A stretch of 64,000 bases of DNA from Myxococcales bacterium (GTDB lineage Bacteria > Myxococcota_A > Polyangia > Haliangiales > Haliangiaceae): NCBI GenBank assembly GCA_016720595.1, contig JADKKI010000078.1:1-64000 (forward strand), given 5' to 3'. Below, piece by piece: positions 25,378-31,561 of this stretch (position 1 is the first letter of the stretch; each line of letters opens with the position of its first letter). A model generated the notes under the pieces. The model was not told where the DNA came from. It did not search any database and was given only the letters and a program-made list of their open reading frames with translations. Made by a program: the position numbers and the translations under genes.

Positions 25378-27654
25378 ATGAAGAAGGTCCTCGCCGGTTT
25401 CCTGCTCGCGGCTGCGCTCGCGGGCTGCGGTCCCAAGCACTCGAACTTCGTCAAGGTAGATGACGTCGCGCTCGGTCGCGTCGTGATCTATCGGAACGGA
25501 GTCGCCTACTACGAGCGCCGCGCCACGGTCAAAGGTGGCGCCCTGACGGTGAGCGTCCCGCGCGATCGCGTGGATGACTTCCTCAAGTCGTTGACGGTGG
25601 TCGATGCGATCTCCAAGCAGCCGCTCCCCGTCTCGATCCCGCGCGAGCAGGCGAGCGATGGCGACTACCTGGTGATGAAGCTGCAGCTGCCGAGCAAGGC
25701 GCCGGCCGACGTCGTCCTCACCTACGTCACCGAGTCGCCGGCCTGGAAGCCGAGCTACCGGGTCGTGGTCGGCGACAAGGGCAAGGTCCTGGTCGAAGGC
25801 TGGGCGATCGTCGACAACACCTCGGGCGAGGACTGGAAGGACGTCCTCGTCGGCGTTGGCTCGAGCTCGGCCCTCTCGTTCAAGTACGACCTGTGGAGCG
25901 TGCGTCAGGTCCACCGCGAGACGCTCGCGTCGGAGGAGAAGTTCGCAGTCGCGCCGCCGAGCGGCATCTCGCCCTACGGCGGAGCGGGACCGAACGGCCA
26001 GGGCGGCGAGACCGCGATCGCCGAGCTCGGCGATGACGAGATCCGCCGGCCCCAGGGCCACCCCGAGGACAAGAACGCCGAGCGCGTGGCGATGTCCGAT
26101 CCTGCCCCCGCGCCGCGGATGGACTACGGGGAGGCCTCCGGGTCCTACGATGGCGACGAGGAGTCGGTCTCGGTCACGAGCATGGGCGGCCCATCACGGA
26201 GCGGCAGCATCAGCGGCGGCGGTAAGAAGTCGAAGGGGCGCCAGATCCGACCGGCCAAGAAGGTCGCGATGGCCGAGCCGACCAAGCCCGCGCAGGCGGC
26301 GCCCCCGATGGACGCGCGCGTGTCCCAGGGTGACACCAAGATGCGCAACATCTCGTCGCAGCTGTCGAACAACAACAACACGATCGTGATCGAGGGCTAT
26401 GCGGACGCGAATCGTCCTGATGCCACGCGCCGCGCGAACGACCGCGCGAACATCGTGCGCAACCAGCTGATCGATCAAGGCGTGGCGCCGGCGCGCATCA
26501 AGATCGTCACCAAGATCGAGCCCAACCAGGCCGAGCGCGTGCGCCTCGTCGCGCAGGCCCCCAGCGCCGAGGAGCAGAAGCAGACGCAGGCCGCCGCGCA
26601 GAAGGGCATGGCGATCGATGCGCAGCCCGTCGGCGAGAGCCACTTCGCGAACCCACTGCCGATGAGCGTCGACAAGGGCGCGAGCGCGATGGTCTCGATG
26701 ATGCGCAAGGAGACCGAAGGCGAGGTGGTCTACCTGTACGACGCCGAGAGCGAACGCGGTAACGCGGCGTTCGCGTTCCGGGCGGTCCGGTTCAAGAACC
26801 CCACGGACTCCACGCTCGAGACCGGTCCGGTCACGGTCTATGGCAACGAGCGCTTCATCGGCGAGGGCCTCACCGAGCCCGTGCCGCCCCGTGCCTCGGC
26901 CGTCGTGCCCTACGCGCTCGATCGACAGATCGTGATCGAGCGGAGCGATGGGGAGGACAACCAGCTGTCACGGCTGGTCACGCTCCAGCGCGGCGTCCTC
27001 ACCGCCGAGGTCCAGCACATCCGCCGCCAGAAGCTGGTGGTCACGAACCGCCTGCGCGAGCCGGCCAAGGTCTTCATCCGCCACACCGTCAACAAGGGCT
27101 GGACCCTGCTCGAGGCACCGCCCGCGTTCGAGCGCGTCGGCGAGGCGCACCTGTTCCAGGTCGATCTCAAGCCGGGCGAGGTGCGCACCGTGGAGATCGC
27201 CGAGGCCACGCCGATGGAGCGCACGCTCGACCTCAACGCCGAGGTCACGCTCGACATGATGAAGGTCTACGTCGAGGCGCCCGAGGGTAGTGCGGAGCTC
27301 AAGGATCAGCTGAAGAAGCTGCTCGCGATCCACAAGAGCCTCGTCGACCTCACCGAGGAGCAGGTCAGCCAGCGCCGGCGCCTCGTCGACTTCAAGGAGC
27401 GGATGGACGAGCTCCATGCGCAGATCTTGACGCTCACCGCGGTCAAGACCGGTGGGGACCTGATGAACCACCTCAAGACCAAGATGAAGGACATCTCGGA
27501 GCGCGTGCAGAAGACCACGATCAAGCTCGTCGATCAGGAGGAGAAGATCATGCTCGCGCGCGTGCAGTTCCAGGACGCGCTCGCGGAGCTGACGCTCCCC
27601 GATGCGCTCGGGGGCGGCAAGTCCTCGAACTCGAAGCCCGTCACGAAGAAGTGA
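25378..27654 (+). CDS. DUF4139-like lipoprotein with inserted OmpA-like domain
   Basis: A lipobox (LAGC, Cys18) precedes a DUF4139-type N-terminal half (VVIYRNGVAYYERRATVKGG; WKPSYRVVVGDKGKVLVEGW) and C-terminal half (VRFKNPTDSTLETGPVTVYG, LDRQIVIERSD, then a Lys/Glu-rich coiled coil). Between them, after a Gly/Ser/Lys-rich linker, residues ~330-400 form an OmpA C-terminal-like unit: IVIEGYADANRPDATRRAND...RANIVRNQLIDQGVAPARI, i.e. the peptidoglycan-binding pattern. The protein is thus probably outer-membrane anchored and may contact the cell wall. Its function is unknown. Confidence 0.8.
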   Translation: MKKVLAGFLLAAALAGCGPKHSNFVKVDDVALGRVVIYRNGVAYYERRATVKGGALTVSVPRDRVDDFLKSLTVVDAISKQPLPVSIPREQASDGDYLVMKLQLPSKAPADVVLTYVTESPAWKPSYRVVVGDKGKVLVEGWAIVDNTSGEDWKDVLVGVGSSSALSFKYDLWSVRQVHRETLASEEKFAVAPPSGISPYGGAGPNGQGGETAIAELGDDEIRRPQGHPEDKNAERVAMSDPAPAPRMDYGEASGSYDGDEESVSVTSMGGPSRSGSISGGGKKSKGRQIRPAKKVAMAEPTKPAQAAPPMDARVSQGDTKMRNISSQLSNNNNTIVIEGYADANRPDATRRANDRANIVRNQLIDQGVAPARIKIVTKIEPNQAERVRLVAQAPSAEEQKQTQAAAQKGMAIDAQPVGESHFANPLPMSVDKGASAMVSMMRKETEGEVVYLYDAESERGNAAFAFRAVRFKNPTDSTLETGPVTVYGNERFIGEGLTEPVPPRASAVVPYALDRQIVIERSDGEDNQLSRLVTLQRGVLTAEVQHIRRQKLVVTNRLREPAKVFIRHTVNKGWTLLEAPPAFERVGEAHLFQVDLKPGEVRTVEIAEATPMERTLDLNAEVTLDMMKVYVEAPEGSAELKDQLKKLLAIHKSLVDLTEEQVSQRRRLVDFKERMDELHAQILTLTAVKTGGDLMNHLKTKMKDISERVQKTTIKLVDQEEKIMLARVQFQDALAELTLPDALGGGKSSNSKPVTKK

Positions 27655-27678: not shown

Positions 27679-28386
27679 ATGCGCTGCCTCGTGCTTGCGA
27701 CGTCCGTCACACTCGTCCTCGCGGCCTGTAGCGACGACGGGGGCAAGGACGCCTCGGTCGATATCGATAACGGCTCGTGCGGAGACCAGGTCCGGTTCAC
27801 CGGCGAGTACATCGACTGGGACTCGGGCACCGCGTTCTGCGGGATCAAGGACGCCACCCTCGAGGTCGAGGGTGGCGGCGCGATGGACGGCACCGCGCCG
27901 AATGGCCGGTTCGATCTCTGCCTCCCCGGTGCCAACGTCACCACGCGCGTGAACATCACGCAGCCGACCGCTGCATCGGAGTGCACGCAGCCGGCCTCGA
28001 CATATCCGATGCCGACGATCCTCTACGCGAGCAAGGCCGTGATCCGCGGCGGTGGCTTCTTCAGCGCACGCTCGATGACCGTGGCGCGGCAGACCAGCTT
28101 CTTTACCCAGATCGGCCAGCCCTTCGACGCCGCGCGCGGCCAGGTCGTGGTCCACGTCAACGGCGTCACCCCGCGCGCGGTGACGCTGTCAGGGGATCAC
28201 GGGGCGCCGCAGGTCAACAGCGGTAGCGGCTGGGCGGCGGGTGACACCGGCATCGACGTGGTGTTCCCGAACGTCGCCGTCGGCTCGGGGAAGGCGAAGC
28301 TCTCGATCGCGGGCGGAGGGCTCGGCGAGGGCGACATCCCGGTGATCGCCGGGACGATCACGAACGTCGCGCTGATCGCGAACTGA
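27679..28386 (+). CDS. Hypothetical lipoprotein
   Basis: The ATG at 27679 gives MRCLVLATSVTLVLAAC, a lipobox. The mature protein is a beta-rich domain of about 215 residues resembling carboxypeptidase-regulatory-like or Ig-like folds (DATLEVEGGGAMDGTAPNGR, VTTRVNITQPT), with four Cys besides the lipobox. It starts 24 bp after the previous gene and could be cotranscribed with it. No known catalytic motif is seen; a surface or binding role is inferred. Confidence 0.7.
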   Translation: MRCLVLATSVTLVLAACSDDGGKDASVDIDNGSCGDQVRFTGEYIDWDSGTAFCGIKDATLEVEGGGAMDGTAPNGRFDLCLPGANVTTRVNITQPTAASECTQPASTYPMPTILYASKAVIRGGGFFSARSMTVARQTSFFTQIGQPFDAARGQVVVHVNGVTPRAVTLSGDHGAPQVNSGSGWAAGDTGIDVVFPNVAVGSGKAKLSIAGGGLGEGDIPVIAGTITNVALIAN

Positions 28387-28479: not shown

Positions 28480-28707
28480 GTGAACCGGACCGCCAAGGCT
28501 CTCGTGCTCGCCCTCGGCCTGTCGGGACTCGTGTCCGCGGCGGGCTGTCATCGCGTGAGTGCCAACCAGCGCGAGACGCTCGCCCGGCCCGACATGGAGC
28601 TCGGCGCGGCGCCGGAGCTGTCGAGCGGTGAGGAGCATGCGCGCGGCTATCGCGAGGGTGCGAGTGGCGGCGGCTCGGGTAAGGCCGGCGGCTGCGGTTG
28701 CAACTGA
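28480..28707 (+). CDS. DUF4266 small lipoprotein
   Basis: This 75-residue protein (GTG start) has a signal peptide with lipobox SAAGC, then the DUF4266 signature: HRVSANQRETLARPDMEL, EHARGYREGASGGG, and a C-terminal GGCGCN. The family is a short envelope lipoprotein that, to my knowledge, repeatedly neighbours DUF3570 proteins and ApbE (FAD:protein FMN transferase) genes. The C-terminal Cys-Gly-Cys could be a redox or metal site. It is the first gene of a three-gene cluster with the two CH-motif proteins; the next start overlaps by a few bases. Confidence 0.9.
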   Translation: MNRTAKALVLALGLSGLVSAAGCHRVSANQRETLARPDMELGAAPELSSGEEHARGYREGASGGGSGKAGGCGCN

Positions 28708-28708
28708 C

Positions 28709-29179
28709 GTGCTGCGCGCGGCCACACGCGTTGGCCTGATCGGGATGCTCGCTGCGATGGCAGCTGGGTGCACCGATCCCAAGGGCGAGCTCGCGATCCC
28801 GGCGGCGGACGCCACCGTGTTCCAGACCACGGTCTATCCGATCCTGCTCCGCGACTGCGGCTTCACCACCTGCCATGGGACCTCCGATCGGTTCTTCTCC
28901 GTGTTTGGTCCCGGGCGCACGCGGCTCGATCCGGAGACGGCGCCATACGATCCGGCGACGCCCTACGAGCTCGCGATCTCGTACACGCGCGCGCGCTCGA
29001 TGATCCTCGGGCCCGCCGGGCCGACCAGCTCGCTGCTCCTGCGCAAGCCGATCCCGCTCGCCAGCGGCGGGGCGGGGCACAAGGGCAACGATCCCTGGGG
29101 CCGCAGCGTCTACGCGAGCATCGATGACGCGCGCTACGTCGCGCTGTACCGCTGGGCCACCGCCTCGAGGACCCCATGA
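28709..29179 (+). CDS. Lipoprotein with cytochrome-like CHG motif
   Basis: From a GTG at 28709 the protein has a lipobox (AAGC in LAAMAAGC). After FQTTVYPILLRDC it carries a C-x4-CHG motif, CGFTTCHGTS, the place where soluble c-type cytochromes of the PSCyt kind have C-x2-CH. Because the spacing is four instead of two, heme attachment is uncertain. Conserved tryptophan/aromatic residues follow. Its stop overlaps the next start (ATGA), so it is translationally coupled with the MYXO-CTERM protein. A role in an envelope redox chain is inferred. Confidence 0.7.
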   Translation: MLRAATRVGLIGMLAAMAAGCTDPKGELAIPAADATVFQTTVYPILLRDCGFTTCHGTSDRFFSVFGPGRTRLDPETAPYDPATPYELAISYTRARSMILGPAGPTSSLLLRKPIPLASGGAGHKGNDPWGRSVYASIDDARYVALYRWATASRTP

Positions 29180-29883
29180 GAGCGGCGGCCTGGCTGGTCG
29201 CGGTCGGCCTCCTCGTGATCGGGGTGCCGGCGCGCGCCTTCGCGTTCTCCGATCCGGCGCTGTTCGGCCAGGGTGTCGACAAGGGCGGGGGCGGCGGTCG
29301 CTACTTCACGGGTTCGCGCGCTGACGGCTATGCCTGCAGCGTGTGTCACCGCGGAGGGCCCACGCCGAAGTTCGTCGTCGAGGGCATTCCCGACGCACCC
29401 GTGGCCGGCACCCGGTACGACCTGGTAGTCCGCTGGGATGATCCGGCCACCCCGCATGCTCTCCAGCTCGAGCTGGTGACGCCGAGCGGCACCCATCCGT
29501 CGGTGACCGTCGCCGCGGCGGCGTCGCTGCCCGCGGCGTCCCGCTGCGAGCAGAAGGCGGATGGCGCGCCCGCGATCTACACGTTCGATGTCGGGGTGCG
29601 CAGGATCGTCGGGGTCGAGGACTGCAACGCCGCGATGGTGACGCTGTCGTTCGTGGCCACCGGCGAGCCGATCGAGCTCGCGATCGGCGCGATCACGAGC
29701 GATGCTTCGGGCACCGTCGAGGGGGATGGCACGTACGAGCTTCGCACCGTGATCGGGGAGCACCTCGCGTCCAGCGGTGGTGGGTGCAGCACCGGTGGAG
29801 ATCCGGGTGGTGCGGGCCTCGTCGGCCTGTGTGGGCTGGCGCTCGTGCGGCTCAGGGCAGCTCGACGCCGACCAGCCCGGTGA
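29176..29883 (+). CDS. Secreted CxxCH protein with MYXO-CTERM-like tail
   Basis: A signal peptide (MRAAAWLVAVGLLVIGVPARA) is followed by a canonical heme c motif CSVCH in YACSVCHRGG. A beta-sandwich region (YDLVVRWDDP, LQLELVTPSG) comes next and then a Gly/Cys-rich C-terminal anchor GGGCSTGGDPGGAGL with hydrophobic and Arg-rich end, as in MYXO-CTERM sorting signals. It is translationally coupled to the CHG lipoprotein. This is the most credible c-type heme candidate of the cluster, though a zinc or disulfide role is possible. Its 3' end overlaps the convergent DUF3570 gene by 32 bp. Confidence 0.75.
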   Translation: MRAAAWLVAVGLLVIGVPARAFAFSDPALFGQGVDKGGGGGRYFTGSRADGYACSVCHRGGPTPKFVVEGIPDAPVAGTRYDLVVRWDDPATPHALQLELVTPSGTHPSVTVAAAASLPAASRCEQKADGAPAIYTFDVGVRRIVGVEDCNAAMVTLSFVATGEPIELAIGAITSDASGTVEGDGTYELRTVIGEHLASSGGGCSTGGDPGGAGLVGLCGLALVRLRAARRRPAR

Positions 29884-30949
29884 GCTCGAGCGCCCACACG
29901 TGGTCGAGGCCGACGTACGCGAGATAGTCCGCGCGTGACAGCGTGGCCCGCAGGCCCCAGATGATCACGCGGTCACCGTCCTCGTTCTCGATGCGCATCA
30001 GGTACTGCGATCCGAGCTCGTTGCCGACGAGGGAGGACAGCTTGCGGTCGCGCGTCACGTAGCCGGACGTCATCGCGAGATCGAAGTATCGCGGGCGATA
30101 GAACGAGGCCTCGCTCTGCGCGGAGTAGCGATAGCGGAGCGAGACGGTGTGTTGCTCGCCGATCCGAAGTGCGACATCGGCCTCCGCGGCGTGCGACTGG
30201 ATGCCCCAGTCGTCGAAGTAGAACCGGTACTCGAGCCCGCCCGACAGCGACCGCCCGAGCGCCCGTCGTGCGCGCGCGGTGAACGCGGTGCGGATCCGCT
30301 GGTTCGGGACCTGCTCGGGGATGCAGTACGGCGCCTTCGACGTGCACGTGCCGAGATCGCCGATCGCGACGAACCGGTACGGGCTCGCCTGGTAGCCGTC
30401 GACGAGCGTGGTCTGCGCGCCGAGCTCGGCGATCGTGCGGCGATCGATCACCTGGGCGAGCGTGAGCCGGCCACCGAGCGTGCGCACGGGGAGCGCGAAG
30501 TCCGGGTCGCCCGAGCGGCCCACCCGATCATCGCTGCCGAGCGCATCGATCGAGACGGTGGTGTTCTTGCCCGCCAGCTCGGAGCGCAGGCCCAGGGTCA
30601 GCCCGTGGGACTGGTAATCGGGCTCGTAGGAGAACCTGTAATTCGCCGACAGCCGTGTGGTCTTGCCCTCGTAGCCCACCGCGGCATCCACCTCGTTGCG
30701 ACGCTCGTGGATCGCCTTGGTCGCGGCGGTCACCACGTCGACCGAGGCCCCGGTCCAGGCATCGACGCTGTACGTACCGTCCACGGTGACGTGGTCGACG
30801 GCGCCGGCGATCTTGACCGTCGGGGCTACGATGGTCGTCGCGTCCGTGTCCGAGCGCACGTAGACGGTGGACGAGGCATCTGTCACTCTGGGGGTGTGAC
30901 CGGCGCAGCTGACCCCCACCAGGATCGCCAGGACCGCGCGGTACGACAT
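29852..30949 (-). CDS. DUF3570 outer-membrane protein
   Basis: The 365-residue protein starts with a secretion signal (MSYRAVLAILVGVSCAG; the Cys may be a lipobox). It contains the DUF3570 blocks VDAWTGASVDVVTAATKAI, HERRNEVDAAVGYEGK and alternating-residue beta strands throughout (RYRYSAQSEASFYRPRYFD). I read it as a beta-barrel, an inference from the strand pattern. It is convergent with the CxxCH protein and its start lies 6 bp from the DUF2271 gene on the other strand. Together with DUF4266 it forms the conserved DUF3570/DUF4266 pairing. Confidence 0.85.
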   Translation of the reverse strand: MSYRAVLAILVGVSCAGHTPRVTDASSTVYVRSDTDATTIVAPTVKIAGAVDHVTVDGTYSVDAWTGASVDVVTAATKAIHERRNEVDAAVGYEGKTTRLSANYRFSYEPDYQSHGLTLGLRSELAGKNTTVSIDALGSDDRVGRSGDPDFALPVRTLGGRLTLAQVIDRRTIAELGAQTTLVDGYQASPYRFVAIGDLGTCTSKAPYCIPEQVPNQRIRTAFTARARRALGRSLSGGLEYRFYFDDWGIQSHAAEADVALRIGEQHTVSLRYRYSAQSEASFYRPRYFDLAMTSGYVTRDRKLSSLVGNELGSQYLMRIENEDGDRVIIWGLRATLSRADYLAYVGLDHVWALELTGLVGVELP

Positions 30950-30955
30950 CGCGGG

Positions 30956-31561
30956 ATGATCTGGCCGCGGGGGGGAGCCGTGTCAACGCTCGGCGCGGTC
31001 ATGATCGTGTTTGGGGCTGGGTGCTTCCCGCCGGACACCGGCGCGGACGTGATCCAGCCCGGTACCGAACCGCCGGGACAGCTGTTCGGCGCCGACGCGG
31101 GCACCACCAACAACCCGTGCGGTGCCCCGGACACCTCGCCGCTGACCAAGCTCCACATCGTGGTGAGGACCACCGCGTTCGGCGGCCGGTACAAGCCGCG
31201 CAACGTCGGGGCGATCTGGATCGAGACGGCCCAGGGCGCGTTCGTCAAGACGGTGGAGAAGTGGGGCAAGACCCGCGCTCGCTACCTGACCAAGTGGAAT
31301 GCAGCCTCGGCCGGGAACATCGTGGATGCGGTCACCGGGGCCACGCTCTCGCAGCACGCCACCCACGATCGCACCTGGAACCTGACCGACAAGAACGCGT
31401 GCAAGGTCCCCGCCGGGGACTACCGGATCGTGATGGAGCACACGGACTACAACGGCGCCGGGGCGTCGATCCAGATCCCGTTCACCAAGGGCGCGGCGCC
31501 GGTCACCGCGATGCCCGCCGAGACCGTGTACTTCCACGATCTCCTCGTCGACCTGCAGTAG
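30956..31561 (+). CDS. DUF2271 lipoprotein
   Basis: The start is ATG at 30956 (or GTG at 30980, which leaves more room for a promoter). A hydrophobic stretch GAVMIVFGAGC is a lipobox. The DUF2271 signature follows: VGAIWIETAQGAFVKTVEKW, ARYLTKWNAASAGNIVDAVTGATL and the DYRIVMEHTDYNG core. DUF2271 proteins are found with flavin transferases and periplasmic redox proteins in other bacteria, as far as I recall. This copy starts back to back with DUF3570 and probably shares a promoter region with it. No ApbE gene is in this window. Confidence 0.85.
   Translation: MIWPRGGAVSTLGAVMIVFGAGCFPPDTGADVIQPGTEPPGQLFGADAGTTNNPCGAPDTSPLTKLHIVVRTTAFGGRYKPRNVGAIWIETAQGAFVKTVEKWGKTRARYLTKWNAASAGNIVDAVTGATLSQHATHDRTWNLTDKNACKVPAGDYRIVMEHTDYNGAGASIQIPFTKGAAPVTAMPAETVYFHDLLVDLQ

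Follow-up and report, generated by a model that had tools for sequence, protein, structure and literature searches.

A 64,000-nucleotide stretch of contig JADKKI010000078.1 (assembly GCA_016720595.1, a Myxococcales bacterium; hereafter the window) carries, at positions 28480..31561, genes for a DUF4266 lipoprotein, a C-x4-C-H-G lipoprotein (P2), a CxxCH protein (P3), a DUF3570 protein, and a DUF2271 lipoprotein. With a probability of roughly 0.6, this cluster works at the outer membrane as an extracytosolic electron-transfer module, in which DUF3570 and DUF2271 would be flavinylated by ApbE, DUF4266 would serve as a thiol relay, and the putative cytochromes P2 and P3 would carry electrons onward. 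An extracytosolic electron-transfer role was already proposed in the initial annotation of this DNA, and it is supported by the gene content, the motifs, and the co-occurrence with ApbE. The sequence-based part of this reading consists of gene content, conservation, flavinylation motifs, ApbE co-occurrence, and the DsbD, thioredoxin, or ApbE neighbors in some relatives, from which I infer flavinylation, heme binding, the surface position of P3, the order and direction of electron flow, and the acceptor. In the proposed route, electrons would pass from DsbD via a TlpA-like thioredoxin to the thiols at the CxC end of DUF4266, then to the flavins on DUF2271 and DUF3570, then to the hemes on P2 and P3, and from these to a surface acceptor. 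The predicted barrel DUF3570 and the lipoprotein DUF2271 would each bear a covalent flavin mononucleotide, attached by an ApbE encoded elsewhere. The order thiol, flavin, heme is a downhill one.

Is the cluster conserved? All five genes are genuine, and they are conserved; a chance assembly is rejected because the gene set recurs in relatives, although DUF4266 and DUF2271 vary in strand and order. The closest named relatives come from Polyangiales/Myxococcales metagenome-assembled genomes. Three sets of loci, 48 in all, were compared, some of them cut by contig ends. The first, obtained by scanning genome contigs with the DUF3570 alignment, comprises 8 loci whose titles name Kofleriaceae, Myxococcales, 'Proteobacteria', Sandaracinus, and Nannocystis. 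P2 and P3 lie within about 4 kb of DUF3570 in 8/8 of these loci, DUF2271 is present in seven (absent in L006), and DUF4266 is present in seven (not in L002, where the contig ends), which supports a conserved neighborhood, a point that the initial annotation had proposed to check. The second set of 20 (L082-L101, with L091 and L006 being one place) was picked by strong P2 matches alone and contains P3 in 19 loci, DUF4266 in 18, and DUF3570 in 17; a TlpA-like thioredoxin is present in 13 of the 20 and DUF2271 in 12. The third set of 20 (L102-L121), picked for P2-like and DUF3570 matches on one contig, contains DUF3570 in 20, DUF4266 in 19, P3 in 16, a thioredoxin in 8, and DUF2271 in 3. The DUF4266 gene of the window (28480..28707, plus strand; 75 residues; PF14086, 56.5 bits against a cut-off of 27, E 5.5e-15) ends in GGCGCN, and the C-terminus GCGC[N/K] was found in 94/94 frames matched by the hidden Markov model, some of which are one place fetched twice. 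A spermidine-synthase-like protein was also seen near the cluster in L008, L092, L095, and L097-L101 (only the L098 copy was scanned).

P2 (28709..29179, plus strand) is a lipoprotein of 156 residues with a GTG start. It had no match in Pfam or NCBIfam and no fold match, while 170 proteins matched it at E<=0.001. Its residues C21, C50, C55, H56, and H124 are invariant in 86/86 aligned sequences. By its conservation, the CGFTTCH motif (Cys50-His56; 28856..28876) is a candidate site of heme c attachment, and His124 (29078..29080) may be the distal heme ligand. The Cx4CH motif is preserved in tandem copies within a distant P2-like protein, encoded at L114 7785-10847 (minus strand), where N-terminal tandem P2-like Cx4CH domains are followed by a PD40 propeller and an HZS_alpha middle domain (30.8 bits, cut-off 26.6), with a Cytochrome_CBB3 match of 22.6 bits, below its cut-off of 27. 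Many frames of about 1000 residues have P2-like matches, of which only the L114 protein was scanned for domains, and in L008, P2 lies within a longer frame behind transmembrane-like segments. Going by its sequence, P2 is probably of heme type and a candidate c-type cytochrome.

P3 (29176..29883, plus strand; 235 residues) combines a CxxCH motif, a predicted Reeler-type beta-sandwich, and a MYXO-CTERM-like tail. The CSVCH heme c motif (Cys54-His58; 29335..29349) is present in 59/59 aligned members, the window counted, and so is the MYXO-CTERM-type cysteine, Cys204 (29785..29787), which is followed by an Arg-rich tail. The window protein scored 15.3 bits with the MYXO-CTERM model TIGR03901, below the cut-off of 20, and 25/59 members match it at E<=0.1. 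A Cys motif, a transmembrane helix, and an Arg-rich cytoplasmic tail direct MYXO-CTERM proteins to the surface (PMC11980579), and P3 may likewise be sorted toward the cell surface. All 59 members match the choice_anch_V model (NF041895) at E<=0.1, the best at 1e-11, while the window P3 alone gave 18.2 bits, below the cut-off of 42; 41/59 match the MXAN_6652 family model (NF041894) at E<=0.1. Both models were judged by their names alone.

At the predicted signal-peptidase site of P3 (A21-F22-A23), residue 23 is Ala in 59/59 members, and residue 24 is Phe in 51 and Tyr in 8. Such an Ala plus Phe/Tyr context occurs in 59/59 P3 members versus 1/45 in a crude background. The P3 model matches Reeler domains, cytochrome f, and some unrelated beta-sandwiches, and its alignment with cytochrome f begins at cytochrome f residue 1. 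The Pfam matches of P3 included no cytochrome f family, and no chain of cytochrome f reached E<=10. No conserved distal His or Met was found across the P3 alignment. By analogy with cytochrome f, the heme ligands of P3 would most likely be the His of the CxxCH motif and the alpha-amine of the aromatic residue at the N-terminus, in the window Phe24 (29245..29247), the predicted residue 1 of the mature protein. It is also conceivable, if unlikely, that the flavin part is real and that P2 and P3 are not cytochromes, binding another metal such as copper or zinc or forming disulfides, for example in metal handling or periplasmic thiol repair. Against this, P3 is an exported CxxCH protein that has a structural match to cytochrome f and a weak sequence match to the segment of SoxA around its CxxCH (E 0.003), the P2-like domains share a protein with HZS_alpha and the sub-threshold Cytochrome_CBB3 match, and PF01578 was found in 27/27 genomes whose P2 match has an E of 3.2e-33 or lower (hereafter the strong-P2 genomes).

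In several relatives, P3 is joined in frame to its neighbors. Its frame is open into DUF4266 in 13/48 loci (L008, L094, L096-L101, L108, L110, L111, L113, and L121), into DUF3570 in L006 (the same place as L091), and into P2 in L105-L107. At the joint, the MYXO-CTERM helix is followed by an Arg run and then by the next protein's signal peptide. There is no ATG, GTG, or TTG from the P3 cysteine to the DUF4266 lipobox in L100 and L101, while L008 and L096-L099 have a single GTG in this interval, within a hydrophobic stretch. L006 has a GTG two codons past the P3 cysteine, ahead of the first helix, and a TTG within the hydrophobic stretch. In L108 and L113, a start codon lies right before the Arg run, so that separate translation is possible. 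The window P3 gene ends normally with no read-on. These shared frames tie P3 to DUF4266 and DUF3570 in relatives. They also speak against a loose neighborhood in which two or three independent envelope functions merely stand side by side. Genes on both strands and the shifting place and strand of DUF2271 and DUF4266 between loci would fit such an arrangement, but P2, P3, DUF3570, and DUF4266 occur together again in distant paralogous clusters (in the third set, whose contigs were picked for having both P2 and DUF3570), and a loose neighborhood is quite improbable.

The Ala-Phe/Tyr cleavage context, the lack of a conserved distal His or Met in P3, the cytochrome-f-like model match, and the in-frame P3 fusions were newly seen in this study. 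A bolder proposal is one that I regard as tentative and rather doubtful: P3 would be a cytochrome-f-like surface cytochrome outside photosynthesis, its heme bound through the N-terminal amine, forming an outer-membrane flavin-heme conduit with the flavinylated barrel, and the Nannocystis-type and Sandaracinus copies would be P3-DUF4266 or P3-DUF3570 polyproteins whose hairpin of MYXO-CTERM helix, Arg turn, and signal peptide would be cut by two membrane proteases.

As for the flavin carriers, DUF3570 and DUF2271 are ApbE flavinylation substrates (PMC8238504), and the flavinylation consensus is D-x-x-[S/T]-G-A-[S/T] (PMC12052999). A search for S/T-G-A-S/T, suggested in the initial annotation, did find D-x-x-T-G-A-S/T sites in both proteins of the window. 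DUF3570 (29852..30949, minus strand; 365 residues; PF12094, 139 bits, E 2.2e-40) has the canonical DAWTGAS (30743..30763), one further residue, and then a candidate second site, DVVTAAT (30719..30739), in which Gly is replaced by Ala, as against two [S/T]GA[S/T] sites in the logo of PMC8238504. In another protein, a Gly-to-Ala change in the motif lowered flavinylation to about 50%, as reported in PMC12052999. The pattern D-x-W-[TS]-G-A-S-x-D-V-x-[TS]-A-A-T is kept in 19/19 aligned DUF3570 sequences, the window counted; one of the two DUF3570 scan patterns was WTGAS[VI]DV, so that site 1 was partly selected in the first 8 loci. In a home-made test, the hydrophobicity of DUF3570 alternates above that of shuffles (z 3.5 in the window, 1.7-3.5 in 18 aligned relatives), which is in keeping with a predicted outer-membrane beta-barrel; the other four cluster proteins have no such alternation. 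DUF3570 has many paralogs per genome (e.g., 9 matches in G103), several of them bearing different motifs (e.g., DAVTGAT plus DAVSSAT). DUF2271 (30956..31561, plus strand; 201 residues from ATG 30956; PF10029, 38.2 bits against a cut-off of 27.3, E 1.3e-9) has DAVTGAT (31325..31345). By these motifs, DUF3570 and DUF2271 would themselves be the flavin carriers, a point that the initial annotation did not make. Two observations weaken the case for a flavin role in some relatives: the motif Gly is Ser in many of them, with DUF3570 and DUF2271 alike affected in the Nannocystis-type loci, and the motif was not found by the search pattern used in DUF2271 of L005, L025, L094, and L096. Where the Gly is replaced, the Asp and the acceptor Ser/Thr are mostly kept.

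Where does ApbE come from? There is no ApbE in the 64,000-nucleotide window, nor any match to a TlpA-like thioredoxin or DsbD, and the initial annotation took the heme-type proteins to stand in place of ApbE. This does not hold, since ApbE lies on contigs other than that of the cluster in 8/8 genomes behind the DUF3570 loci, is present in 27/27 strong-P2 genomes, and was found within one of the 48 cluster loci (L082 of genome G139), beside a thioredoxin, DUF3570, DUF2271, P3, and P2. Of 192 surveyed genomes of the class, 123 have DUF3570, 93 a P2-like match, and 155 ApbE; ApbE was found in 116/123 genomes with DUF3570 versus 39/69 without it (p 4.5e-10). This comparison and the 27/27 count are rough tests, as these are drafts of unknown completeness. 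FMN_bind was not matched in 11/27 strong-P2 genomes and NQR2/RnfD not in 12/27. In 10/27 neither was found, and so DUF3570 and DUF2271 are the recognizable ApbE substrates there. One ApbE of Nannocystis (G008) lies a few kb from FMN_bind and NQR2 genes, which it may serve. A TlpA-like thioredoxin was found in 22/48 cluster loci, in support of a link with ApbE and thioredoxin, which the initial annotation had proposed to look for, and DsbD in 4/48 (L083, L111, L119, and L120; in L083, between DUF4266 and P3). DsbD_TM is present in 27/27 strong-P2 genomes, a domain common anyway. Apparently, the supply parts of the cluster (ApbE, DsbD, and thioredoxin) are sited elsewhere in the genome. The least probable alternative, an ApbE-independent relay in which hemes replaced flavins and DUF3570 and DUF2271 were kept as scaffolds only, would suit the lack of ApbE in the window and the Gly-to-Ser changes of the Nannocystis-type loci, but is opposed by the ApbE of the cluster-bearing genomes, the canonical motifs of the window, and the retained Asp and acceptor residues.

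All five adjacent genes of the initial annotation are present, but DUF3570 is on the minus strand, and the Cys-Gly-Cys of DUF4266 is followed by a terminal Asn. Only DUF4266, P2, and P3 form a tightly packed same-strand trio, in which the GTG start of P2 lies 1 bp past the DUF4266 stop and P3 starts at an ATG overlapping the stop of P2. DUF3570 is convergent with P3, with an overlap of 32 bp, and head-to-head with DUF2271. For DUF2271, ATG 30956 is an alternative to GTG 30980 (193 residues) and perhaps the better start. If ATG 30956 is used, the start codons of DUF3570 and DUF2271 are just 6 bp apart (30947-30958), and their promoters would have to sit within each other's genes. The first matched residues of the two proteins likewise lie within about 30 bp of each other in L001 and L002. 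On the 5′ side of the cluster are an unknown lipoprotein-like gene (27679-28386) and a MuiA/OmpA-like gene (25378-27654); similar-looking genes occur in the same order in L001.

Conserved single-heme-like partners, one of them surface-sorted, would put the flavin system at the outer membrane, with a concrete route from thiol to flavin to heme to the outside. If the N-terminal amine does ligate heme here, outside the b6f complex, the chemistry would be rare, and the group has cultivated members like Nannocystis. Making two exported proteins as one hairpin polyprotein, if true, would be an unusual means to fix their ratio.

How does the cluster compare with known systems? P3 resembles cytochrome f of b6f in its CxxCH near the N-terminus, predicted aromatic mature N-terminus (59/59), modeled beta-sandwich, and C-terminal transmembrane-like tail. 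It differs in having no detectable sequence homology, a MYXO-CTERM-like tail, and about 30 residues from the N-terminus to the CxxCH, versus about 20 in cytochrome f; a b6f context was not seen. P3 members also match the MXAN_6652 and choice-of-anchor V family models, with the window protein under the cut-off of the latter. Unlike the Reeler domain of F-spondin, which is not known to have a heme motif, P3 carries one. Porin-cytochrome conduits such as Mtr also combine a barrel with periplasmic and surface redox proteins, whereas here the predicted flavins would sit on the barrel protein itself, the predicted hemes would be single, and none of the five genes encodes a multiheme cytochrome. The initial annotation knew of no described system with this composition. 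A DsbD-type flavinylation system of ApbE, DUF3570, a thioredoxin-like protein, and DUF4266, in some cases with DsbD, is described in PMC8238504, although the available part of that paper makes no mention of the two CH proteins. The cluster shares with it a DUF3570 with a flavinylation motif, a DUF4266 with a C-terminal CxC (CGCN in the window), and, in some relatives, an adjoining thioredoxin, DsbD, or ApbE. It differs from that system in that the window lacks ApbE, thioredoxin, and DsbD, the recurrent thioredoxin is TlpA/Redoxin-like and not PF13899, and DUF2271 and two heme-type proteins are added. Thus, the cluster extends the known, poorly understood DsbD/thioredoxin/DUF4266/DUF3570 flavin system rather than replacing it.
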